From Anaerolineae bacterium (GTDB lineage Bacteria > Chloroflexota > Anaerolineae > Anaerolineales > Anaerolineaceae), in the NCBI GenBank assembly GCA_013314735.1, contig JABUFD010000003.1, positions 372,001-436,000 of the forward strand: a DNA stretch of 64,000 nt, written 5' to 3'. How positions within the stretch are numbered: the stretch's first letter is position 1; each line of letters begins with the position of its first letter. Shown here piece after piece: positions 22,920-57,897 of the stretch. The notes under the pieces were generated by a model. It saw only the letters and a program-made list of their open reading frames with translations, was not told where the DNA came from and searched no databases. The position numbers and the translations under genes were made by a program.

Positions 22920-25900
22920 ATGTTTAAAAAATTATCCAAAGTCCTCTTTGGCGACCCGGTTGAAAAAGAGATCAATGAACTGGCGGCGGTTGCCGACCAG
23001 GTGAACGCCCTCGAAAGCGAATACGAAGCCCTCAGCGATGACGCCCTGCGCGCCAAAACCGACCAGTTCAAGGCGCGCCTCGCCAACGGCGAAACCCTCA
23101 ACAGCTTGCTGGTGGAAGCCTTCGCCGCCGTGCGCGAGGCCTCCAAGCGCAGCATCGGCCTGCGCCATTATGATATCCAGCTCATCGGCGGCCAGGCGCT
23201 GCACCACGGCAAGATCATCGAGATGCGTACCGGCGAAGGAAAAACCCTCGTCGCCACCCTGCCGATCTACCTCAATGCCCTCACCGGCAAAGGCGTGCAC
23301 CTGATCACGGTTAATGATTTCCTCGCCCGCACCCAGGCACGCCTGATGGCGCAGGTTTACCACCGCCTGGGAATGAGCATCGGCGTTTTGCAGATGGCCT
23401 CCCGCACCGAAAACGGCAATATGGCCTTCCTGGTCGACCTCAGCAAAACCTCCAGCCAGGAAGACCAGCACCAGCTGGTGATGGTGCCGCGCAAAAAGGC
23501 ATACGCTGCCGACATCACCTACGGCACCAACGCCGAATTTGGTTTTGATTACCTGCGCGATAACCTTGCCATGTCGCTGGACGCGCGCGTGCAGCGCGGG
23601 CACCACTTTGCCATCATCGACGAAATCGACAATGTTCTGATCGATGAAGCCCGTACCCCCTTGATCATCTCCGGTCCCTCGCAGCAGGGCACCGAGTACT
23701 ACACCGAAGTTGCCGCCGCGGTACGCGCCCTCAACCCCGAAGATTACGAGATCAGCGAACGCGACCGCAACGTGACCCTGACCGAGATCGGTGAGGCGCA
23801 CGTGGAAGAACTCCTCAACCAGACCCTCGGCGACCCCGAGCGGCCGGAGGACATCACCCCCGAACAGGCGCGCCTGCTGGGCTTCCTTGAACAGGCATTG
23901 AAAGCGCAATTCCTCTTCAAGCGCAACAAGGATTACCTGGTGCAGGGCGGCAAAGTCATCATCGTGGATGAATTCACCGGGCGCCTGATGCCCGGACGGC
24001 GCTGGTCGCAGGGGCTGCACCAGGCGGTGGAAGCCAAGGAAGGCGTGCAGGTGGAGCCGGAAAGCGTCACCTACGCCACCATCACCCTCCAGAACTACTT
24101 CCGCATGTATGAAAAACTATGCGGTATGACCGGTACCGCGGTTACCGAGGAAGAGGAATTCGACAACATCTACAAGCTGCGCGTGCTGCCGCTGCCCTCC
24201 AACCTCGAATATGAAGCCAAAAAAGCCAATTCCGAACTGGAGATGATCCAGGCCCGGGATGAATCCGGCTACAAGTACACCTACTACGCCCGCAAGGACG
24301 ATCCGGAAAAGAAAGCCGTTTACTTCAAGCGCAAGGACTATCCCGATATCGTCTACCGTTCCGAGGAAGCCAAGCTGCGCGCCAGCATCCAGGAGATCAT
24401 CAGCCTGCATGTGGTGGGGCGGCCGATCCTGGTCGGTACCGCATCGGTGGAACATTCCGACCGGCTGGCGGTGCTGCTGCGGGCGGAATACATCAGCAAG
24501 CTGTGCCAGATCCTGCTCATCCGCCAGGCATGGATGGATGCCAACAACACCACCATGATTGACCGGATTGTGCCGGAACTGGAACCGTTCAACCGCCCGC
24601 TGGGTGAAATCCAACCGCGTGAACTGCGCGAGATGTCGCGTTCGTACAACATCGCCAACAACCCGGCAGAGGAAAGCAACCTCACCCGCCTGCTGGCGAT
24701 CCTCGGCCTGCAGGAGAGCGACCGCGAGCGTCTGCGCGGGGTGCTGCTGGGGGGCGTACCCAACCAGGTGCTTAACGCCCGCAAGCACGACCAGGAAGGC
24801 CTGATCATCGCCCGCGCCGGCGCGTTCGGCATGGTCACCATCGCCACCAACATGGCCGGCCGTGGTGTCGATATCAAACTCGGCGGGGAAATCCCCGAAA
24901 ATGTGCATGCCGATGTGGTGCGCCTGCTGCGCAAGCACGGCGTGGACAATGTCTATGACCTGACCCATGATCAGATGCGCGACCTGCTGCGCCAGATGCC
25001 CCCGGAAGATTTCGGTATCTACCAAGAATCGGCGCAATTCTTCCTCGAATCGATGGAAGGTGATGAGCGTGTGCGTGAGCTGGGCGGACTGCACGTGATC
25101 GGCTCGGAACGCCACGAAGCGCGCCGCATCGACAACCAGCTGCGCGGCCGTTCCGCCCGTCAGGGTGATCCCGGTTCCTCGCGCTTCTACCTCTCCCTCG
25201 AAGATGACCTGATGCGCATCTTCGGCGGCGCCCAGGCGGAAGCCGTCTTTGCCCGCATGAAAGTCGACGAGAACGTCCCGATCGAAGTCGGGCTGATCGG
25301 ACGCCTGGTGGAGCAGTCGCAGGAACGCGTGGAAGGCGCCAACTTTGACACCCGCAAGCACCTGCTGGAATACGATGATGTGCTCAACGCCCAACGCCAG
25401 CGCATCTACGACCAGCGCGACCGCGTATTCCACAAAGACGACCTGACCGAGGATGTCAACAGCATGCTGCGCACCGAACTCGAACAGCGTGTGCCGCGCG
25501 CCCTCGATGATGACGAAGGCCCCTGGCGCCTGCTTTCCTTCCTGGGACAGGTGCAGCCCACCATGGCATTTGAAGAATTCTATTACCCCTCCTTCGGCCT
25601 CAGCCTGCTGATGGAAGACATCGAAAAAGCCCTGCAGCGTGAGGGATGCAATTTTGCCACCCTCAAGCGCGAATTGATGAAGATCGCTGAAGGCACCCTT
25701 GCCGCCGAACAGGACCACCTGGCGCGCGGGTTGGAACAACTGGTTACAGAAACCAACACCCGCCACCAGTCCCAGCTGGCGGAACGGCTGGAAAGCCTGG
25801 AGCATTTCTTTGACACCATCAACGACCGCGAGGATGCCGACACCATCTCGACCGTCCAGTTGGCGGAAGAACTGCAGGAGGTGCTGCGCATGCCGCTGCG

Positions 25901-26954
25901 CCTCAGCAACAGCCAGGTGCAAAAGATCAAGAGCGATCCCGAAGGCATCCAGGAAGAACTGGAACAGCAACTGGAGAGCTACCTGGGCAACATCAGCCTG
26001 CGGCGCGTCGCGGGTGCCATCGCCCGGCGGTTGGAGGAGAACTTTGACACCACCCCCGACCTGAGTAAGACCTCGTTCCAGGAGGCGCTGGAAAGCATGC
26101 ATACCGCGGCGCTGGAGCAATACAACCAGCGCACCGCCCGCCTGCTGGGTGAGAATGGCGCCATCGCGCGCGATATCGAAACCCTGTTCAGCCGCCTGGC
26201 CGATGACTCCTACACCCGCGCCGGCATCATCCAGTACCTCAACACCATGTCCACCGGCCAGCGCCAGGTGTTTGACAGCCAGAGCCACCGCCGCGGCACC
26301 ACCGCGTATACCCGCATGCATTACCCGCACCTCAGCGCCCGCAAGATTGCGGACAGCCAGGCGGGGGAACTCACCGCGCGCGTGCTGGGCCATTTGCAGG
26401 GCGCGATTGAACAGCAGCAAATGATCTGGGGACGGATCGAATGGCGCGCCTTCGTGCAGGGCGGCGCCACGATCGAGCAATTTGACCGCTACCGCAAAGC
26501 GAAACTGATCGAGGCTTTCGGGCAGGAATGGTTCGACGGCCGCCGGGAGTGGATCGCGGCGGACTTTCCGGAAGATGACACACGCCAGATGGAAGCCTTT
26601 TTAGGGCATTACCTGGTCAACGAAGTCTACCGCCGCCTGCTGCTGCGGGTGATCTCGGACGAATGGGTTGAATACCTGACCAAGATGGAAGCCCTGCGGG
26701 TTTCGGTGGCCATGGAAAGCTATGCGCAGCGCAACCCGCTGGTGGTCTATAAGAGCGAGGCCAGCGATAACTACCGCACGCTCCTCAGCGACATCCGCAT
26801 GCGCGTGATCAGCGGCATGTTCACCATACGCCCCAGCCGCGAAGTCGCCGCCACGGTGGCGCGTCCCGCAGTGCAAAGCGGCGGTACGACTACTGCTGCC
26901 CCGGCGAACACCCCGGCCGCCGGCAATGCCAAACGCAAGCGCAAACGCCATTGA
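22920..26954 (+). CDS. secA: Preprotein translocase ATPase SecA, oversized
   Basis: 1344-residue SecA motor; bacterial SecA is usually 800-950. NBF1 is intact with TGEGKT (104-109), DEID (234-237) and DEARTPLIISG (242-252), and the preprotein-binding region with GMTGTA follows (402-407). In NBF2 the expected short step from the strand VGTASVEHSD to VPNQVLNARKHDQE is stretched by roughly 85 residues (about 525-610). IATNMAGRGVDIKLGG and QLRGRSARQGDPGSSRFYLSLEDDL are normal. After the helical scaffold starts (LLEYDDVLNAQRQRIYDQR, about 815-833) some 400 residues, largely predicted coiled-coil, precede the scaffold's second half (LLLRVISDEWVEYLTKMEALR, about 1240-1260), where about 130 are usual. 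There is no Cys-rich SEC-C tail; the protein ends in a basic KRKRKRH. Confidence 0.95.
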   Translation: MFKKLSKVLFGDPVEKEINELAAVADQVNALESEYEALSDDALRAKTDQFKARLANGETLNSLLVEAFAAVREASKRSIGLRHYDIQLIGGQALHHGKIIEMRTGEGKTLVATLPIYLNALTGKGVHLITVNDFLARTQARLMAQVYHRLGMSIGVLQMASRTENGNMAFLVDLSKTSSQEDQHQLVMVPRKKAYAADITYGTNAEFGFDYLRDNLAMSLDARVQRGHHFAIIDEIDNVLIDEARTPLIISGPSQQGTEYYTEVAAAVRALNPEDYEISERDRNVTLTEIGEAHVEELLNQTLGDPERPEDITPEQARLLGFLEQALKAQFLFKRNKDYLVQGGKVIIVDEFTGRLMPGRRWSQGLHQAVEAKEGVQVEPESVTYATITLQNYFRMYEKLCGMTGTAVTEEEEFDNIYKLRVLPLPSNLEYEAKKANSELEMIQARDESGYKYTYYARKDDPEKKAVYFKRKDYPDIVYRSEEAKLRASIQEIISLHVVGRPILVGTASVEHSDRLAVLLRAEYISKLCQILLIRQAWMDANNTTMIDRIVPELEPFNRPLGEIQPRELREMSRSYNIANNPAEESNLTRLLAILGLQESDRERLRGVLLGGVPNQVLNARKHDQEGLIIARAGAFGMVTIATNMAGRGVDIKLGGEIPENVHADVVRLLRKHGVDNVYDLTHDQMRDLLRQMPPEDFGIYQESAQFFLESMEGDERVRELGGLHVIGSERHEARRIDNQLRGRSARQGDPGSSRFYLSLEDDLMRIFGGAQAEAVFARMKVDENVPIEVGLIGRLVEQSQERVEGANFDTRKHLLEYDDVLNAQRQRIYDQRDRVFHKDDLTEDVNSMLRTELEQRVPRALDDDEGPWRLLSFLGQVQPTMAFEEFYYPSFGLSLLMEDIEKALQREGCNFATLKRELMKIAEGTLAAEQDHLARGLEQLVTETNTRHQSQLAERLESLEHFFDTINDREDADTISTVQLAEELQEVLRMPLRLSNSQVQKIKSDPEGIQEELEQQLESYLGNISLRRVAGAIARRLEENFDTTPDLSKTSFQEALESMHTAALEQYNQRTARLLGENGAIARDIETLFSRLADDSYTRAGIIQYLNTMSTGQRQVFDSQSHRRGTTAYTRMHYPHLSARKIADSQAGELTARVLGHLQGAIEQQQMIWGRIEWRAFVQGGATIEQFDRYRKAKLIEAFGQEWFDGRREWIAADFPEDDTRQMEAFLGHYLVNEVYRRLLLRVISDEWVEYLTKMEALRVSVAMESYAQRNPLVVYKSEASDNYRTLLSDIRMRVISGMFTIRPSREVAATVARPAVQSGGTTTAAPANTPAAGNAKRKRKRH

Positions 26955-49189: not shown

Positions 49190-52117
49190 TTAATCTGCAT
49201 TCATCACACAGCGAAAGCCAATATCAAATGATCGAATTGTTTGGTAAAAGCCATGCCTATGGTAAACGGTCAAGGTATATCCATCGCTTTCAGAATCCCA
49301 TGCGCCCCCCCGACCATAGCCACTTTGATCCCACTCCCAAACATTCCCTACCATATCCATTACACCATATGGACTGAGGTTTTGAGCAAAGCTGCCTGTT
49401 AAGGATGTATCACCTCGGCACCCCAGGATATTAGAGTTTTGGCATGAAGGAATATCATTACCCCATGGGTACAACCTTAAGTCCGTCCCGCGAGCCGCTT
49501 TCTCCCATTCATCCGATTCTGGAAGGCGACCATTAACCCAGAAACAATAGTCTTCTGCCTGATCTTTTGTAATGTATATCACGGGAAAGTCACCAAATTC
49601 AGGATCAGCCCAATAATTTTGGCGCGTATATGAGGTTTGCCTATCCGGCGGAGAACAGATGTTTTCATTCACACAAAGAGCATATTGCTTATTCGTAACC
49701 TCAAATTTATCTATCCAAAAAGCCGGCAAATAGACCTCTTCGGCATAAGAAGCATGTCCCCGGAAAAAATTACCTGCCGGGATATACATCATTTCCATCC
49801 CGTCTTTTTCACGTACCGTGCCTGGGCCGATGTCAGTGTTCTGGTCTGGTGTTTCAGTAGACTGCTCAACTTCGTCCACTTGCATCGCGCATCGAAAACC
49901 GTAATCGTACCAATCCCAATAAGGATTACCTGCCACGCGAGACGCAGACAAGAGTGAGTCTGTGTCATTAATCCAGGAGCCACCGCGCATAACACGGAAT
50001 TCTCCACTGACCGGTCCGGTCGGGTTCTCAACTGGGCTGCTTTGGTAGTAGGCCTCATCCCACCAATCCAACACCCATTCCCATACATTTCCCGCCATAT
50101 CGAACGCGCCGTATGGGCTGACACCAGCAGGATTGCTCCCCACACGGCTCGTATCACCCAAGCAAACCGTACCAGGGTTAAAATTCGCCAGGCTGCAGGT
50201 CGGGGGGTCATTCCCCCATGGATACATTCGCCCATCCACCCCACGCGCTGCTTTTTCCCACTGTGCTTCCGTCGGCAATCCTCCACCCACCCATTCACAA
50301 TATGCAGCTGCTCCATACCAATCGACATAAACCACCGGAAAATTTCCATATTCCGGGTTCATATAATAATTATCACGAGTTTGCGATATGCTTTTATACG
50401 GTTTCGTGCAGGCGCCAGCAGCCACGCATTGCTCATACTGCTCATTTGTTACTTCATACATGTCGATCCAGTACGCGTCAAGATATACCTCATGCGCTGG
50501 TTGTTCATAGATGTCACCCTCCTCACTCCCCATCGTGAATACCCCCTCCGGCACGTACACCATCTCCATCCCATCCATTTCCCGCATTCTCGTTGATCCG
50601 ATGCCCAGGTTTCCACTGGCAGATCCGTCATCCGGGGAAACAGGAATGATGAGGGTATCTCCCAGAAATATCTGGGTGCAGCCAGCATCCAGGGAATTGG
50701 CTGCGACCAAATCTGCAATCGATACGCCAAAGGCAGTTGCTATACTCGAACAGGAATCACCCGCCTGAACAACGTATGCCACCGATTCCGGGTCCAATGT
50801 GTCCATGACCGTGGTTGGTGTGGCGGCATCTGTCGCCACAGGAGCAAGCGTATTTCCAATGGTTGCTGTGCTGGTCACTTGCGCCGAAATCGTTTCAGTC
50901 ATCCACTTCGCCTCTGCCCCGTTATCATCTGGTCCTGGGCTCACCAGTTTTCCCCCCAAACCAATCGCCAGCCCCAGCACGATCACCCCGACCCCAGCAA
51001 GCAGCCATACGGTTTTTGGCCTTCTGGCACTTCGACCTTCATCAATGGTGACGAGGGAACTTGCTTTGACAGATTCAGCCAGCATCGTCTCTTCCTCCAC
51101 TGGTTGTGTCAGAAAAACGTTCTCCGAACCTGCTTGCACTGGGTCATGTCGAAGTGCCTGCCCTGAGCTTGCTTGTACTGAGCCATCTCGAAGTGCCGAA
51201 GGAGCGGTCCCTGAGTCTGTCGAAGGGTGGAACGTGGCTTCGACAGGCTCAGCCACCGTTGCTTGCCGAAGTGTCGAGGGTTCGTTCCCCAGGCTGGGCG
51301 AGAGAATTTTTTCCAGCGCTCCCCCGAACACTTTCATCGAGGCATAACGATCGCCTGCTTCCTTCGCCAGTGCTGTGCTTAACAGTGCGCAGGCGCCTTC
51401 TGAAAGGTCTGCTTGATACTTGCGTGGATCCGGCAACGCTTCGTACTTCTGCATCGTCAGCGTTTCAAACGGGGTTCGGCCTTCAAACGGTTTCTTGCCG
51501 GTCAACAGTTCATACAGGATCACACCCAGCGCATACTGGTCACTCTGCGCGCTCGCTTCCCCGCCGATCAGTTCCGGCGCCATGTACGCCGGGGTGCCCA
51601 CCGCCGCCCCGGTGGCCGTCAGGGTGGCGCCATCGTCCCCTTCCATTAACTTCACAATCCCAAAATCCGCCAGCATCGGGCGGTCATTCTCATCGAACAG
51701 GATGTTGGCCGGTTTCACATCGCGGTGTACCATGCCGCGCTGGTGCAGGTAGCCCAACGCCTCCGCGATTGGTTCCAACCATCCAACCGCTTCACGCACA
51801 GCAACCGGCTGGCCCATGCGGTCTTTGAGCGTACCATTCGGCAGGTATTCCATCACCAGGAACGCACCGGCATCATCCACCCCATAATCCAGCACGGTGA
51901 TGATACTGGGGTGCTGCATGCGTGCCATGGCGCGTGCCTCCCGCCGGAAGCGCTCCAGGAATTGCGCAACCATCTCTTCACTGGCGCCGATGATGCGCAA
52001 GCGCTTAAGTGCCACCTGCCGCCCCAGGCGTTCATCTTCCGCGAGATACACCGCCCCCATCCCGCCTTCCCCAAGCTTTTTCAGGATTCGATACCTGCCT
52101 TCGACAATATCTGCCAT
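49190..52117 (-). CDS. Membrane Ser/Thr kinase with LysM and two SUMF1 domains
   Basis: 975-residue receptor-like protein. Kinase 1-270: GEGGMG (16-21), Lys38, HRDVKPAN (130-137) and DFG (150-152), all catalytic residues present. A low-complexity linker (about 275-365) is coded largely by a palindromic repeat. A transmembrane helix lies at about 369-390. Outside, a LysM domain (about 446-491: YVVQAGDSCSSIATAFGV then FLGDTLIIP) is followed by two FGE-sulfatase/SUMF1 domains (about 508-735 and 755-975) with the EVTNEQY...CV and YPWGN signatures. A cytosolic kinase with a glycan-binding and SUMF1-type exterior suggests sensing of cell-wall or glycan signals (inference). I chose the ATG at 52117 (GGGAG 6 nt upstream). 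Confidence 0.88.
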   Translation of the reverse strand: MADIVEGRYRILKKLGEGGMGAVYLAEDERLGRQVALKRLRIIGASEEMVAQFLERFRREARAMARMQHPSIITVLDYGVDDAGAFLVMEYLPNGTLKDRMGQPVAVREAVGWLEPIAEALGYLHQRGMVHRDVKPANILFDENDRPMLADFGIVKLMEGDDGATLTATGAAVGTPAYMAPELIGGEASAQSDQYALGVILYELLTGKKPFEGRTPFETLTMQKYEALPDPRKYQADLSEGACALLSTALAKEAGDRYASMKVFGGALEKILSPSLGNEPSTLRQATVAEPVEATFHPSTDSGTAPSALRDGSVQASSGQALRHDPVQAGSENVFLTQPVEEETMLAESVKASSLVTIDEGRSARRPKTVWLLAGVGVIVLGLAIGLGGKLVSPGPDDNGAEAKWMTETISAQVTSTATIGNTLAPVATDAATPTTVMDTLDPESVAYVVQAGDSCSSIATAFGVSIADLVAANSLDAGCTQIFLGDTLIIPVSPDDGSASGNLGIGSTRMREMDGMEMVYVPEGVFTMGSEEGDIYEQPAHEVYLDAYWIDMYEVTNEQYEQCVAAGACTKPYKSISQTRDNYYMNPEYGNFPVVYVDWYGAAAYCEWVGGGLPTEAQWEKAARGVDGRMYPWGNDPPTCSLANFNPGTVCLGDTSRVGSNPAGVSPYGAFDMAGNVWEWVLDWWDEAYYQSSPVENPTGPVSGEFRVMRGGSWINDTDSLLSASRVAGNPYWDWYDYGFRCAMQVDEVEQSTETPDQNTDIGPGTVREKDGMEMMYIPAGNFFRGHASYAEEVYLPAFWIDKFEVTNKQYALCVNENICSPPDRQTSYTRQNYWADPEFGDFPVIYITKDQAEDYCFWVNGRLPESDEWEKAARGTDLRLYPWGNDIPSCQNSNILGCRGDTSLTGSFAQNLSPYGVMDMVGNVWEWDQSGYGRGGAWDSESDGYTLTVYHRHGFYQTIRSFDIGFRCVMNAD
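51128..51279. repeat. Palindromic repeat cluster inside the kinase gene
   Basis: Several units of the CCCTGAG-CTGTCGAAGGG type in both orientations, including ccctgagtctgtcgaaggg (51209-51227) and cttcgacaggctcag (51238-51252). They encode residues 281-330 of the kinase without breaking the frame. Related copies occur at 10631-10649 and 62576-62594. Confidence 0.6.
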
Positions 52118-52177
52118 GCGCATCTCCCCGCGCTAACCCGGTGATCCTTCTCCATTGGTGCGATGAAAGCTTGATCC

Positions 52178-52183
52178 ATTATA
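52178..52183 (-). promoter_or_regulatory. -10 box of the LysM-SUMF1 kinase
   Basis: TATAAT on the minus strand, about 60 nt before the ATG at 52117. No clear -35. The remainder of the 255 nt gap to the second kinase stop shows no other feature. Confidence 0.45.
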
Positions 52184-52372
52184 ACGCATTCACGGTACCG
52201 GGGACACTGCATTGCAGGCAATTGGGTTTGGCATGATGATTATTTTCGATAACAGATACTGGAATAATGCCAGCGCTGAAAGCAAATGTATTGCAACAAT
52301 TGATCAACATGGATAACTTATTGCAACGAAATCGGCAACACCCCGCAAAACCGATCAACCTGTCCCCGTCAG

Positions 52373-54250
52373 CTAATTGGCGTCCATCACACAGCGGAAA
52401 CCAAACTCGTGCCAGCGGCTGCCTGGTTCCAAGTGAGTTCGGGTGGATGCTCGCAGATTTGCTGCCGTTGAAGACCAATACCCACCCCGGATAACACGAT
52501 AATTACCAAACAATGGCCCGGTTGGGTTTTCCGTAGGGCTGGATTGATAGTAGGATCCGCTATACCAATCACCAACCCACTCATAAATGTTTCCAGCCAT
52601 ATCCATCACCCCATACGGACTGGCACCTTCAGGATAACTGCCAACTGCCACAGTATCAACCACGACGCAATTATTCGTTTCAGAATAATCCTGAAAATTC
52701 AAGTAAGAACAATCCGGGGCATTGTTCCCCCACGGATAGCGCCTGCCATCGGTTCCTTTGGCGGCTTTTTCCCATTCTGCTTCTGTCGGCAGCCTGCCGC
52801 CTGCCCACTGGCAATAGGTTGCGGCATGGAACCAGGTTACCCAGACCACGGGATAATCCGCATACTCCTGTGTGCCGTAATACAGCGAGCGTGTGTATGA
52901 TTGTTTCGAAAACGGTTCCGGGCAAGCCCCTTCTGCCACGCACTGTTCATATTGTCCATTACTCACTTCATACTGATCCATCCAGTAGGCATCGAGAAAT
53001 ACATCATGCACCGGGTATTCATCCTGCGGCCCATCATAACTGCCCATCGCGAATGTGCCCGCCGGAACATACATCATCGGCATGCCGTCCTTTTCACGAA
53101 TCAAGGTGGAACCAACCCCCAGCGTGGGGGTGGCAGTCATCGTCGGCGTTGTTGTGCGGGTTGGCTGCGGGGTCACGGTCATCGTGGGTGCCGTCGTCGG
53201 GGTTGCTGACGGCGCCGCCGTTTCTTGTGCCTGCCGGGCGACGGTAGGCGTCAGCGTCGGGCGAAGCGCCAGCAAACCGTTGTTCACTCCCCCGGACAGC
53301 AGCCACACCAGCAGCGCCGTTGCTGCAATCCCCGCTAAAATCCACCCGGCCGCATTGTTCCGCACACGGCTTGCTCGCGACAACACCCGGTACAGCCCGC
53401 TGCGGGGTTGAATGCTGCCCAGTCCTTCCAGCGCCGTAATCAATTCCGCCATATCGGCATAGCGTTTGCCCGGTTGTTTGGCCAGCATCTTTCTCAGCAC
53501 ACTGCAGACCGCCTCCGGCAGCTCCGGTACATGGCTGCGCGGGTCCGGCAATGCCTTCGTCTGCTGCAGCGCCATTGTCTCCATCGGCGTGCGCCCCTCA
53601 AATGGCTTCACCCCCGTCACCATCTCATACAGCACCACCCCCAGCGCGTACTGGTCCACCTGCGGACTCACTTCCCCCGCCACCAGCTCCGGTGCCATGT
53701 ACGCCGGTGTCCCCACCGTCACCCCCGTCCCCGTCAGCGTCGTCCCCGCTCCCCCTTCCATCAACTTCACGATCCCCAGGTCCGCCAGGTACGCCCGCCC
53801 TTCCCCATCAAACAGCACATTCTCCGGCTTGATGTCCCGGTGGATCAGCCCCATCTGGTGCAGGTATTTCAGCCCCCCTGCCAGCTGGCGCACGATCTCC
53901 ACCGCCTCCCCCACCGCCATCGGCCCGTCCATCCGTTCCCGCAGGTTCCCACCCCCCAGGTACTCCAGCACCAGGTACGCTCCCCGCTCATCAAACCCGT
54001 AATCCAGCGATGTGACCACATGCGGATGCTGCACCATCGCCATCGCCTGCGCTTCGCGTTCGAACCGTTTGCGAAATTCAACCACCAGGTCATCGCTGGC
54101 CCCGATCACGTACAGGCGCTTCACCGCCACCTGCCGCCGCATGGTCTCATCCCATGCCAGGTACACCACCGCCATCCCTCCCGCCCCCAGTTTGCGCTGG
54201 ATGCGGTAGCGCCCGTTGATCAGTTGATTGCTGTCATTGTTCGCCTGCAT
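52373..54250 (-). CDS. Membrane Ser/Thr kinase with one SUMF1 domain
   Basis: 625 residues: kinase domain (about 10-275) with GAGGMAVVY, Lys in VAVKRL and HRDIKPEN, but the DFG motif reads DLG (in LADLGIV), a tolerated variant. A transmembrane helix is at about 305-323, followed by a Thr/Pro-rich linker with repeated TxTPT units (about 332-380) and one SUMF1 domain (about 385-622) with YEVSNGQY, GGRLPTEAEWEKAA and YPWGN. It is a shorter paralogue of the neighbouring kinase without LysM. Codons in the kinase part end mainly in G (GGG, GTG, CTG, ACG), unlike the C-ending usage of its neighbours. AAGGAG precedes the ATG. Confidence 0.88.
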   Translation of the reverse strand: MQANNDSNQLINGRYRIQRKLGAGGMAVVYLAWDETMRRQVAVKRLYVIGASDDLVVEFRKRFEREAQAMAMVQHPHVVTSLDYGFDERGAYLVLEYLGGGNLRERMDGPMAVGEAVEIVRQLAGGLKYLHQMGLIHRDIKPENVLFDGEGRAYLADLGIVKLMEGGAGTTLTGTGVTVGTPAYMAPELVAGEVSPQVDQYALGVVLYEMVTGVKPFEGRTPMETMALQQTKALPDPRSHVPELPEAVCSVLRKMLAKQPGKRYADMAELITALEGLGSIQPRSGLYRVLSRASRVRNNAAGWILAGIAATALLVWLLSGGVNNGLLALRPTLTPTVARQAQETAAPSATPTTAPTMTVTPQPTRTTTPTMTATPTLGVGSTLIREKDGMPMMYVPAGTFAMGSYDGPQDEYPVHDVFLDAYWMDQYEVSNGQYEQCVAEGACPEPFSKQSYTRSLYYGTQEYADYPVVWVTWFHAATYCQWAGGRLPTEAEWEKAAKGTDGRRYPWGNNAPDCSYLNFQDYSETNNCVVVDTVAVGSYPEGASPYGVMDMAGNIYEWVGDWYSGSYYQSSPTENPTGPLFGNYRVIRGGYWSSTAANLRASTRTHLEPGSRWHEFGFRCVMDAN

Positions 54251-54368: not shown

Positions 54369-55664
54369 ATGCCAACCGAAGCAAAGAAATTTTACGAAAT
54401 GTCACTGCCCGAACGCCGGGCGGAAGTACAGCAGGCAGCCGCGTTGAGTGATGCCGAGATTGCCGCCCTGCAGCCGCAAGGCGGGCTCTCGCTGGAGCAG
54501 GCCAACCGCATGATCGAGAACGTGGCCGGGCTGTACAGCCTGCCGCTGGGGATCGCGCAGCACTTTGTGGTCAACGGGGTGGAGCGCCTGGTGCCGATGG
54601 TGATTGAAGAACCCTCCGTCGTCGCCGCGGCTTCCTACATGGCACGCCTGGTTAAATCCGGCGGTGGGTTCACCTCCAGCAGCGATGAACCCCGCATGAT
54701 CGGGCAAATGCAGCTGCTCGATCTTGCCGACCCCGCCGAAGCAGCTGCGCGCATCCTGGCGCAAAAGGATCGTTTACTGGCAGCCGCGGCGGAAATTGAC
54801 CCCCTCCTGATCCGCCTGGGCGGCGGCCCGCGCGACATCGTGGTGCGTGAACTGCACAGCGCAGCCCTGGGTACGTTCCTCGTCCTGCACCTTATTTACG
54901 ATGTACGTGACGCGATGGGCGCCAACGCGGTCAATACCGCCCTCGAACGCCTGACCCCGCTGGTGGAAGCCATCAGCGGCGGGCGTGCCCACCTGCGTAT
55001 TCTTTCCAACCTGGCGGACCAGCGCCTGGCCAAGGCCGCCTGCCGCATCCCGCTGGCAGCGCTTGGATTCCGCGAGTTCAGCGCCGAACAGGTGCGCGAC
55101 GGCATCCTCGAAGCGTGGGCCTTTGCAGAAGCCGACCCCTACCGCGCCGCCACCCACAACAAGGGCATCATGAATGGCATTGATGCCGTCCTGCTGGCCA
55201 CCGGCAACGATTGGCGCGCCGTGGAAGCCGGGGCGCATGCCTATGCCGCCCGTTCCGGGCGCTACACCAGCCTCAGCCGCTGGTGGGCGGAAGCGAACGG
55301 CGACCTGTGCGGCGAACTGGAACTGCCGATGGCGGTCGGCACCGTGGGTGGTGCCACCCGTGTGCACCCTACGGCGCAAACCGCGCTCAAGATCATGGGC
55401 GTACACAACGCGCGTGAACTGGCGGAAACCATCGCCGCGGTCGGGCTGGCGCAGAACCTCGCTGCCATCCGCGCCCTGGCCACCGAAGGCATCCAGCGCG
55501 GACACATGGCACTCCACGCCCGCCAGGTGGCAATCGCCGCCGGCGCGGCGGAAGACCAGATCGAACCCCTGGCGGCACAATTGACCGCCGAGAAAACCGT
55601 ACGCATCGACCGCGCGCAGGAAATTTTAGCGCAATGGAAACTACAGGCAGGTGAAGATGACTGA
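54369..55664 (+). CDS. Class II hydroxymethylglutaryl-CoA reductase
   Basis: 431-residue enzyme interconverting HMG-CoA and mevalonate. All four catalytic residues of the Pseudomonas mevalonii-type enzyme can be placed: Glu81 ([10 protein letters not shown]), Lys265 (THNKGIMNG), Asp281 (GNDWR) and His379 (RGHMAL). [10 protein letters not shown] and [11 protein letters not shown] are conserved. The class II form fits bacterial enzymes, either for catabolic use or as a mevalonate-pathway enzyme. It is followed by HMG-CoA synthase with an 8 nt overlap, so here it is probably biosynthetic. GAGGAACC precedes the ATG. Confidence 0.94.
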
Positions 55665-56727
55665 ACACAATCCGAGCAAGATCATGCAGACGCAGCGCCC
55701 GGTGGGCATCATCGGCTACGGGGCATATATCCCCCGCTACCGGCTGCCCGGCAGTGAGATTTCCAAAGTGTGGAGCGGACTGGAGGAAGGCAGCCCGGTC
55801 AAGGAAAAAGCTGTCGCCGGGCTGGATGAAGACACCGTCACCATGTCAATCGAAGCCGCTCGCAACGCGCTCAAACGCGCCGGGATCAACCCCGCCGACC
55901 TGCGGGCGGTGTGGATCGGCTCCGAATCGCATCCCTATGCGGTCAAACCCTCCTCCACCATCGTCGCCGAAGCAATCGGCGCCACCCCCAGCATTTCCGC
56001 CGCCGATATGGAATTTGCCTGCAAGGCCGGTTCTGAGGCAATGACGATGGCGATGGGGTTGGTCGGTTCCGGCATGGCGCAGTATGCCCTGGCCATTGGC
56101 ATGGACACTGCCCAGGGACGCCCCGGCGATGCCCTCGAATACACCGCCGCTTCCGGCGGCGCGGCCTACATCCTCGGCCCGGCGGAGGAATCCCTGGCGC
56201 AGATCGAAGCCACCTATTCATTTGTCACCGACACCCCCGATTTCTGGCGGCGCGCCGGGCAGAAGTACCCCAGCCACGGGCAGCGCTTTACCGGCGATCC
56301 GGCGTATTTCAACCACATCCGCAATGCCGCGCAAACCATGCTGGAAGGATTGAACGCACAGCCTTCCGATTTCAAATATGCCGTCTTTCACCAGCCCAAC
56401 CCCAAGTTCCCCCAGCGTATCGCCAAAGAACTGGGCTTCACCAATGAGCAGATCAACCCCGGGCTGCTGGTGACGCGCATCGGCAACACCTACGCCGGCG
56501 CGGCACTGATCGGCGCTTCGGCGGTGCTCGATATTGCCGAACCGGGCGACCGCATCCTGATGGTCTCCTACGGCTCCGGCGCGGGCTCCGATGCCTTCGC
56601 GCTGCGGGTGACGGATGCCATTACCGAACGGCGCGCCAAAGCCCCCACCACCGAAGCCTACATCGCGCGCCGCACCGAGATCGATTACGCCACCTACGTG
56701 CGCTTCCGCCGCAAGCTGGCGAAATAA
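55657..56727 (+). CDS. Archaeal-type hydroxymethylglutaryl-CoA synthase
   Basis: 356-residue thiolase-fold enzyme condensing acetyl-CoA with acetoacetyl-CoA. Catalytic Cys122 ([11 protein letters not shown]), His245 (FHQPNPKFP) and Glu90 (GSESHPY) are in place, and the C-terminal GSGAGSDAF loop is conserved. The length and the [11 protein letters not shown] start match the archaeal/UPF0219 group rather than the eukaryotic-type bacterial enzyme. In archaea this enzyme forms a complex with a thiolase and a DUF35 protein; the thiolase homologue is next door, but no DUF35 gene is visible. The ATG at 55657 overlaps the reductase stop; a GTG two codons earlier is possible. Confidence 0.92.
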
Positions 56728-56739
56728 AGGAACGGCACC

Positions 56740-57897
56740 ATGGAAGATATCGTCATCCTCGGATTGGGGCAAACCCCGGTCGGTGAACACTGGGAATTGA
56801 GCCTGCGCCAGTTGGGTGTGCAGGCGATCCGTGCCGCCATTGCCGATGCCGGCGGGTTGGCCCCACAGGCCATGTACATCGGCTCTTATCTCACCTCAAT
56901 GGTCTCGCGCCAGGCCAACCTGGGCGCGCTGCTGACGGATGAAAGCGGTTACCGCGGTATTGAGGGTTTCACGGTGGAAGCCGCCGAAGCCTCCAGCCTG
57001 GCCGCCCTGCGCATGGCGTTCATCGCGGTGCGCTCCGGCTTCATCGATACCGCCCTGGCGGTGGGGGTCGAAAAAGCCACTGACAAGGTCGGTGATGAGG
57101 TTGATGCCGCCCTGGCGCAGAGCGCCGATTATGATTACGAAGGCATGCAGGGCGTGACGATGATGACCCAGGCCGGGCTGTTGAAACAGCGCTACCTGTA
57201 CCAGCACCACCTGCCAGCGGATGCCCTTGCGCCCTTCCCCCTCATCGCGCACGAGAACGCGGTTGGCAACCCGAATGCCATGTACCGCCGCGCCATCAGT
57301 TTTGCTGCCTACCAGAAGGCCGCGCCCATCTCCCCGCCCCTCAACATGCTCGATATGGCTGCCTATGCCGACGGCGCCGCCGCTGTGCTGGTCACGCGTA
57401 CCTCGCTGGTGCCGCATGCGCTCAGGGAACAGGCCGTGCGCATCACCGGCAGCGCCGTGGCAATTGACCGCCTTGCCCTGCATGACCGCCCCGACCCGCT
57501 GGCGTTTTCCGCCGCGGCGGCTTCGTTCAATACCGCCATCCGCAAAGCCGGCATCCTCCCCGAAGAGATCGACCTGCTGGAAATAGACGATGCCTTTTCG
57601 ATCTACGCCGCCCTCAGCCTGGAGGCGATCGGCTTCGCCGCCCCCGGCGAAAGCCCGCGCCTGGCACAGGAGGGCGTTTTCTCACGGACTGGCAAAACCC
57701 CCATCCTCAGCATGGGCGGGCGCAAGGCGCGCGGCAACGCCCTGGGCGCTTCTGGCCTGTACCAGGTGGTGGAAACCTGCCTGCAAATGCGCGGCGCGGC
57801 CGGCGCCTGCCAGCTGCCCGTCATCCCCCGTAAGGCCGTGGTCCAATCCCTCGGCGGCCCCGCCTCCACCGCGGTAACGGTGGTGCTCGAAAAATAA
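56740..57897 (+). CDS. Thiolase homologue of the HMG-CoA synthase complex, catalytic residues apparently lost
   Basis: 385 residues with the SCP2/archaeal-type thiolase fold and the start VILGLGQTPVGEHW. Where thiolases have VEAACASG the sequence reads VEAAEASS, so the nucleophilic Cys is Glu83. The HDAF/NEAF-type His is Asp283 (EIDDAFSIY), and the GHP His is Asn332 (RKARGNALGASG). With all three changed a normal Claisen condensation is unlikely. It is 12 nt after HMG-CoA synthase with AAAGGAAC before the ATG. It could be a structural partner of the synthase, as in the archaeal complex, or a different acyl-binding protein. The changes were judged by eye alignment. Confidence 0.82.
   Translation: MEDIVILGLGQTPVGEHWELSLRQLGVQAIRAAIADAGGLAPQAMYIGSYLTSMVSRQANLGALLTDESGYRGIEGFTVEAAEASSLAALRMAFIAVRSGFIDTALAVGVEKATDKVGDEVDAALAQSADYDYEGMQGVTMMTQAGLLKQRYLYQHHLPADALAPFPLIAHENAVGNPNAMYRRAISFAAYQKAAPISPPLNMLDMAAYADGAAAVLVTRTSLVPHALREQAVRITGSAVAIDRLALHDRPDPLAFSAAAASFNTAIRKAGILPEEIDLLEIDDAFSIYAALSLEAIGFAAPGESPRLAQEGVFSRTGKTPILSMGGRKARGNALGASGLYQVVETCLQMRGAAGACQLPVIPRKAVVQSLGGPASTAVTVVLEK

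Follow-up and report, generated by a model that had tools for sequence, protein, structure and literature searches.

A thiolase homologue without catalytic residues beside HMG-CoA synthase in the mevalonate operon of an Anaerolineae bacterium

The closest described counterpart of the locus analysed here is the archaeal complex of HMG-CoA synthase (HMGCS), a thiolase and a DUF35 protein available as PDB entry 6ESQ, the paper on which is reportedly that of Voegeli et al. (PNAS, 2018). Within this complex CoA is held by residues from all three proteins, and the thiolase subunit keeps its Cys85 (excerpts of PMC6392133). A shared CoA site and a DUF35 bridge between thiolase and HMGCS are described in the available part of PMC12329534, where archaeal-type thiolase-HMGCS coupling is thought to pass acetoacetyl-CoA directly. 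PhlACB (PpATase) of Pseudomonas protegens (5M3K) likewise consists of HMGCS-like, DUF35 and thiolase-like subunits; its HMGCS-like subunit, PhlA, lacks Cys and Glu and yet is required for a working complex, whereas its thiolase-like subunit, PhlC, works (excerpts of PMC6392133). DUF35 proteins are also partners of the thiolase-fold aldolases Sal and Ltp2 (9MYR, 6OK1), which have an altered thiolase active site with a catalytic Tyr (motif YDHF or YDCY; PMC12329534, in part). HMGCS/thiolase/DUF35 complexes are thus of a kind already known. A Cys-less thiolase in a mevalonate operon was not described among the open-literature titles and abstract beginnings listed (subscription papers being outside that scope); PMC3857490 and PMC13001223 deal with further archaeal traits of the mevalonate pathway in Chloroflexota, and the portions of them available make no mention of such a protein.

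Here such a protein is analysed in an Anaerolineae bacterium, starting from a 64,000-nucleotide stretch (termed here the window) that spans positions 372001-436000 of contig C6 within a genome of 4.09 Mb in 13 contigs. Three head-to-tail genes in the window, encoding HMG-CoA reductase (HMGR), HMGCS and the thiolase homologue, make up the mevalonate operon, which usually has DUF35 as its fourth gene; in the genome studied the DUF35 gene is unlinked, on contig C9. The features are as follows (window coordinates unless a contig is named):

54369..55664, + strand: HMGR of class II type (TIGR00532), at the head of the operon
55651..56727, + strand: HMG-CoA synthase, archaeal type, with Glu92, Cys124 and His247; best PDB match 6esq chain I (E 3.8e-131)
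56740..57897, + strand: thiolase-like protein without catalytic residues (pseudothiolase), 385 aa, a real ORF beginning 12 bases 3' of HMGCS
56986..56988, + strand: Glu83 (codon GAA) where the nucleophile Cys is expected; VEAAEASS versus EAACASG
57586..57588, + strand: Asp283 where the His of HDAF is expected; IDDAF versus VHDAF/VHDCF
57736..57738, + strand: Asn333 where the His of GHP is expected; RGNALGASG versus RGHPVGATG
C9:1776-2183: DUF35 protein, 135 aa, zinc ribbon and OB fold (PF01796 and PF12172 above cut-off); best PDB match 6esq chain E (E 1.3e-30)

No promoters or terminators above chance were found flanking the operon. Divergent from it, on the - strand at 49190-54250, lie two adjacent genes for fusions of a protein kinase with an FGE-sulfatase (formylglycine-generating-type) domain, one of which also includes LysM. 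Elsewhere in the window (22920-26954) is a SecA homologue of 1344 aa, which is longer than usual and whose Pfam SecA domains reach residue 933.

The catalytic positions of the operon thiolase homologue were read from alignments to two archaeal thiolase structures, 7YVY and 6ESQ (and to a profile). A sequence-only reading of the window had proposed Glu83 in place of the nucleophile Cys, Asp283 in place of the HDAF His and 'Asn332' in place of the GHP His; the alignment bears out the first two and also the third substitution, but not its number, inasmuch as the Asn is residue 333 and residue 332 is Gly. All three catalytic residues are therefore replaced, and no substitute Cys/His pair occurs elsewhere in the protein in the 7YVY and 6ESQ alignments. 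By descent and by its full-length fold the protein belongs to the SCP2/archaeal branch of the thiolase superfamily, with the Pfam domains Thiolase_C_1 and Thiolase_N both above cut-off. What would mark it as an archaeal-type acetoacetyl-CoA thiolase enzyme--the Cys of EAACASG, the His residues of HDAF and GHP, and scores above the family cut-offs--is missing: its NCBIfam scores are 303.6 versus 420 bits for PRK06064.1 and 249.9 versus 600 bits for AcCoTHIOL_METTL.

An AlphaFold2 model built from 51 sequences (mean pLDDT 94.5, pTM 0.94) predicts that the thiolase fold is kept, a shared fold being no demonstration of function. Its structural matches 6et9_C and 6esq_A (Z about 59, or 59.1 for 6esq_A; rmsd 1.7 Å over 381-383 residues) are nearly tied with 7yvy_B (Z 58, rmsd 1.3), which Foldseek places first; among sequence matches in the PDB, 7yvy is likewise first and 6esq_A second. 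The likeness to the archaeal complex goes beyond this superposition: HMGCS, thiolase homologue and DUF35 each match chains of 6ESQ, the HMGCS being of archaeal type with its Glu, Cys and His and the DUF35 combining a zinc ribbon with an OB fold, and most relatives have the genes linked. The differences are that the thiolase here, unlike the archaeal subunit, is without catalytic residues and that DUF35 is unlinked in the genome studied. With PhlACB there is in common an enzyme-like subunit devoid of catalytic residues and yet, as proposed below for the present system, needed; the arrangement is a mirror image, however, since here it is the thiolase that lacks the residues and HMGCS that keeps them. 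The closest solved sequence, PFC_04095 of Pyrococcus furiosus (7YVY; about 38-40% identity over the structural alignment), retains intact Cys, HDAF and GHP motifs, whereas ST0096 of Sulfolobus tokodaii (4YZO), which shares the thiolase fold and by alignment has Ser at the nucleophile position, is only 22-24% identical.

The partner synthase, in contrast to the thiolase homologue, has kept its catalytic residues: the earlier statement that all of its catalytic residues are present holds, as Glu92, Cys124 and His247 are found at the aligned positions. It scores 542.1 bits against TIGR00748 (cut-off 353.35), and among 87 aligned HMGCS rows both Cys and Glu are present in 86, the lone exception being a wrong-frame ORF from a stretch (L107) of another genome. 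That same stretch (G090:C1:1272500-1284500) encodes a second HMGCS, of greater divergence (48%), next to which is an intact thiolase; the stretch contains no DUF35.

It had also been noted that no DUF35 gene is seen here. This is right for the window, in which a PF01796 profile search finds none, but not for the genome, both of whose PF01796 matches are on contig C9; loss of DUF35 is thereby ruled out, the gene simply being on another contig. Among the 61 genomes of the family, 54 have a PF01796 match (above cut-off in 53). In the 50 of these genomes that encode a full-length orthologue of the operon thiolase (termed here group A), DUF35 lies no more than 520 bases downstream of the group A gene in 39 and a strong match lies elsewhere in nine, including the genome studied; two have no DUF35 of this type, and in both of them the group A gene is near a contig end. 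Just upstream of the full DUF35 gene (L038:1506-1766) is an incomplete frame that looks like the zinc-ribbon (N-terminal) portion of DUF35, by eye as if from a partial duplication. A second cluster on C9 (L037:9493-14702, at about 51.5-56.7 kb) contains an intact-motif thiolase and the adjoining other PF01796 match along with, by eye, KAS III-like, acetyl-CoA hydrolase/transferase-like and SDR-like proteins, and represents a different thiolase/DUF35 system within the same genome.

Within the family the absence of the catalytic residues is the rule. A search of 61 genomes (the bacterium's own and 60 others) gave thiolase matches in 59. Group A proteins are 39-65% identical to the operon protein and are encoded beside HMGCS in 50 of 50 stretches, with HMGR also seen in 47 (the other three stretches end less than 0.5 kb from HMGCS). 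All 50 full-length orthologues lack the Cys (G in 21, E in 18, D in 8, and Q, S and N in one each), which rules out a sequencing slip; His283 is kept in six and His333 in five, and all three residues are missing in 42. The loss is thus not peculiar to this one genome. A second set of homologues (group B; 40-45% identity, near full length) is encoded outside the operon in 55 of the 61 genomes, as counted by eye, and has an intact active site in all 18 members read (12 aligned and six further). The genome studied has one such paralogue, at C9:884366-885514. Two members of the family, G025 (99% complete) and G008 (96%), yielded no group A protein; a PF01796 match is likewise missing from G025, while that of G008 is a weaker one, and the operon may be absent from both.

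Beyond the family, a search for HMGCS was positive for 104 of 120 genomes sampled from the class and for 33 of 151 sampled from the phylum (the two samples overlap), and 60 of its neighbourhoods, a non-random selection of one or a few per family, were examined. A thiolase homologue adjoins HMGCS in 57, mostly with DUF35 behind it; 32 of these homologues have the Cys and 25 do not. The Cys-less set includes four of four genomes from another family of the same order (f2), all ten genomes from outside the class, and eleven other families of the class, with one genome read per family. (Gene copies fetched twice, frames aligned over no more than 250 residues and rows of fewer than 300 residues were left out of the counts.) Each of the three genomes without an adjoining thiolase (G098, G177 and G167) has one homologue elsewhere, which is intact with DUF35 nearby in G098, intact in G177 and Cys-less (Asp) in G167.

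When the HMGCS of a Chloroflexus-type genome (G305) was used to scan named genomes, 581 stretches were confirmed; in the best 80, which form a query-biased set and overlap the family, class and phylum genomes, the thiolase is readable in 79 and the Cys is absent from all 79. Named organisms with a Cys-less protein include Chloroflexus islandicus isl-2, Ca. Chloroploca asiatica, Ca. Viridilinea mediisalina, Ca. Oscillochloris fontis, a Roseiflexus sp., Herpetosiphon geysericola DSM 7119, H. llansteffanensis and Leptolinea tardivitalis YMTK-2. Judged from these sequences, a Cys-less thiolase beside HMGCS is widespread in Chloroflexota, Chloroflexus species included. The residue replacing the Cys varies over the relatives among G, E, D, S, A, N and Q. 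Many Cys-less thiolases on the Chloroflexia side (L125-L134, from genomes outside the class, and L136-L169) have DPH for DAF and KARGD for KARGH, a change more uniform than that within Anaerolineaceae.

How often the Cys was lost depends on which genes are consulted. With the active-site columns excluded, a tree built from 122 thiolases requires six state changes, two of them forced by well-supported branches, and for the thiolase alone a single Cys-less clade is not rejected (p-AU 0.347, 71-row subset). The concatenated operon (HMGCS, HMGR, DUF35, and thiolase minus its active-site columns; 65 rows, nine of the 50 family rows among them), analysed under the simpler model LG+G4, also requires six changes but forces five, and rejects a single Cys-less clade, and thus a single ancestral loss, with p-AU 5e-57. 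Because the thiolase alone fails to reject a single loss, a swap of thiolase genes from one operon to another could give the appearance of repeated loss; these trees would accordingly be explained either by several separate losses or by such swapping, and they favour repeated loss, with the proviso that counts of state changes cannot separate loss from gain.

The gene is nevertheless under purifying selection. Estimates of dN/dS range from 0.04 to 0.17 for the thiolase (dS being estimable in 12 of the 16 close pairs) and, similarly, from 0.025 to 0.19 for HMGCS (14 of 16), some dS values exceeding 1 and being rough. With its catalytic residues gone and its gene still under purifying selection, the protein has the marks of a pseudoenzyme. 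In the 11 genomes that encode both forms, the operon protein has changed faster than its intact counterpart, the paralogue (56% versus 68% mean identity); identity at 25 active-site columns is 66% versus 94%, and at the other columns 56% versus 66%. The active-site region of the Cys-less protein is thus relaxed, being at 66% against 94% in the paralogue, though not free, as it remains above the 56% found elsewhere. Upon comparison of 75 Cys-less with 44 intact rows, conservation drops most at columns 328, 283, 285, 286, 333, 335, 338 and 83 and at several within 125-142. Forty-three positions are at least 95% conserved in both sets alike (K112, H171, N177, R250, Y341 and Q342, for example), G73, A84 and S99 alone gain markedly in conservation in the Cys-less form, and no new invariant polar or catalytic set emerges from these rows. 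His283 is retained in 20 of the 75 and His333 in nine, position 283 being otherwise S (17), D (15), W (7), C (6), T (5), Y (3), F (1) or N (1). Because active-site columns exceed the rest and these His residues are sometimes kept, the pocket may not be wholly idle.

A loss of thiolase chemistry bears upon the supply of acetoacetyl-CoA. Among 30 genomes chosen for a Cys-less operon thiolase (residues being read in 29, all but G290), DXR type I was found in none, in a search whose control was positive in nine of 14 known genomes, and mevalonate kinase was above cut-off in 28; these results agree with use of the mevalonate route in the absence of the MEP route, the one MEP marker searched being DXR type I. 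Since its catalytic residues are missing, the operon thiolase is unlikely to hand acetoacetyl-CoA to HMGCS. The substrate would instead have to come from elsewhere, as the sequence-only reading had supposed, and the genome search it had suggested finds both the DUF35 gene and intact-motif thiolases. In the genome studied the source could be the intact C9 paralogue or a more distant third thiolase, also with intact motifs and also on C9; on the Chloroflexia side it could be a classical TIGR01930 thiolase. Such a classical thiolase is matched in 29 of the 30 Cys-less genomes, the exception being the genome studied (none at E up to 1e-30), and in 25 of the 31 genomes whose operon thiolase is intact. 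The rule that the Cys is lost only where another thiolase exists receives weak support from this difference, which is not significant (p 0.10; by family, 18 of 18 versus 24 of 29, p 0.14). A comparison of 30 of 30 with 25 of 31 gives p 0.024 but is unfair, as it counts a paralogue for the genome studied and not for the intact group.

Taken as a whole, these patterns make it probable that a catalytically dead thiolase is kept as a structural subunit of a putative archaeal-type HMGCS/thiolase/DUF35 complex. A structural role was among the possibilities raised initially, and it is the reading that best accommodates the purifying selection, the kept fold, the linkage to HMGCS and the matches to 6ESQ. 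Under the proposed mechanism, the short-type HMGCS would need the thiolase body and DUF35 in order to fold, to assemble or to form the shared CoA site. Because of this presumed requirement the thiolase body could not be lost, whereas its chemistry could, once another thiolase supplies acetoacetyl-CoA.

Other explanations deserve to be weighed against this one. The operon protein, making contact with HMGCS, might pair with the intact paralogue at C9:884366-885514, which would contribute the chemistry, to form a mixed thiolase. Thiolases of this fold are dimers or tetramers, off-operon homologues of the group B kind are frequent in the family and intact wherever read, and all four f2 genomes have a 60-64% relative of the intact paralogue (by similarity only). 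Such pairing is nonetheless unlikely: the paralogue in the genome studied sits, by eye, among seemingly unrelated genes, and a mixed enzyme cannot explain ten of 11 genomes outside the class (all but G189) together with one inside it (G125), as their operon protein is the only match of its type at E up to 1e-8. A regulatory subunit, whose emptied site would bind acetyl-CoA, acetoacetyl-CoA or CoA and thereby tune HMGCS, might require a retained pocket of the sort suggested by the 43 shared positions and by active-site columns more conserved than the rest; that marked gains in conservation in the Cys-less form are confined to G73, A84 and S99 argues against it, and it too is judged a doubtful alternative.

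The suggestion of a new acyl-transfer reaction fares worse, inasmuch as the three catalytic columns are variable and no other conserved set has taken their place. New chemistry more broadly has precedent in the thiolase-fold aldolases with DUF35 partners (PMC12329534, in part), and 6ok1 and 9myr are among the structural matches of the model. The column of the aldolase Tyr (YD-H/C-F/Y) is read as position 283, however, where Tyr occurs in only three of the 75 Cys-less rows, so that the residue is unconserved among Cys-less operon thiolases, and position 83 is variable; new chemistry is therefore quite improbable. A Sal/Ltp2-type aldolase in particular is rejected for the protein studied, which has Asp at 283 and does not keep the YDHF/YDCY motif given in the available part of PMC12329534. 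Least credible of all is that the gene is decaying into a functionless pseudogene: its faster evolution relative to the intact paralogue is in favour of such decay, but the frames are full length and free of stops in 50 genomes, dN/dS is well below 1 and gene order is kept both inside and outside the class, and on dN/dS and gene order this explanation is rejected.

The preferred structural reading may be extended, tentatively and with rather less assurance than for the protein itself, to much of Chloroflexota (Chloroflexus, Roseiflexus and Herpetosiphon among them), where the thiolase of the HMGCS complex might have become a scaffold several times independently. If the scaffold reading is true, then thiolase, synthase and DUF35 would stay coupled for the sake of assembling the synthase and its shared CoA site, with transfer of acetoacetyl-CoA not the sole reason, and a metabolic channel could be unplugged while its body stays in place. 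A body kept with its chemistry deleted would separate channelling from assembly in a way that could be tested in vitro with three proteins. Likewise, such proteins, if called acetyl-CoA acetyltransferase on the basis of homology, would be misnamed, and the source of acetoacetyl-CoA in these organisms would have to be sought elsewhere.
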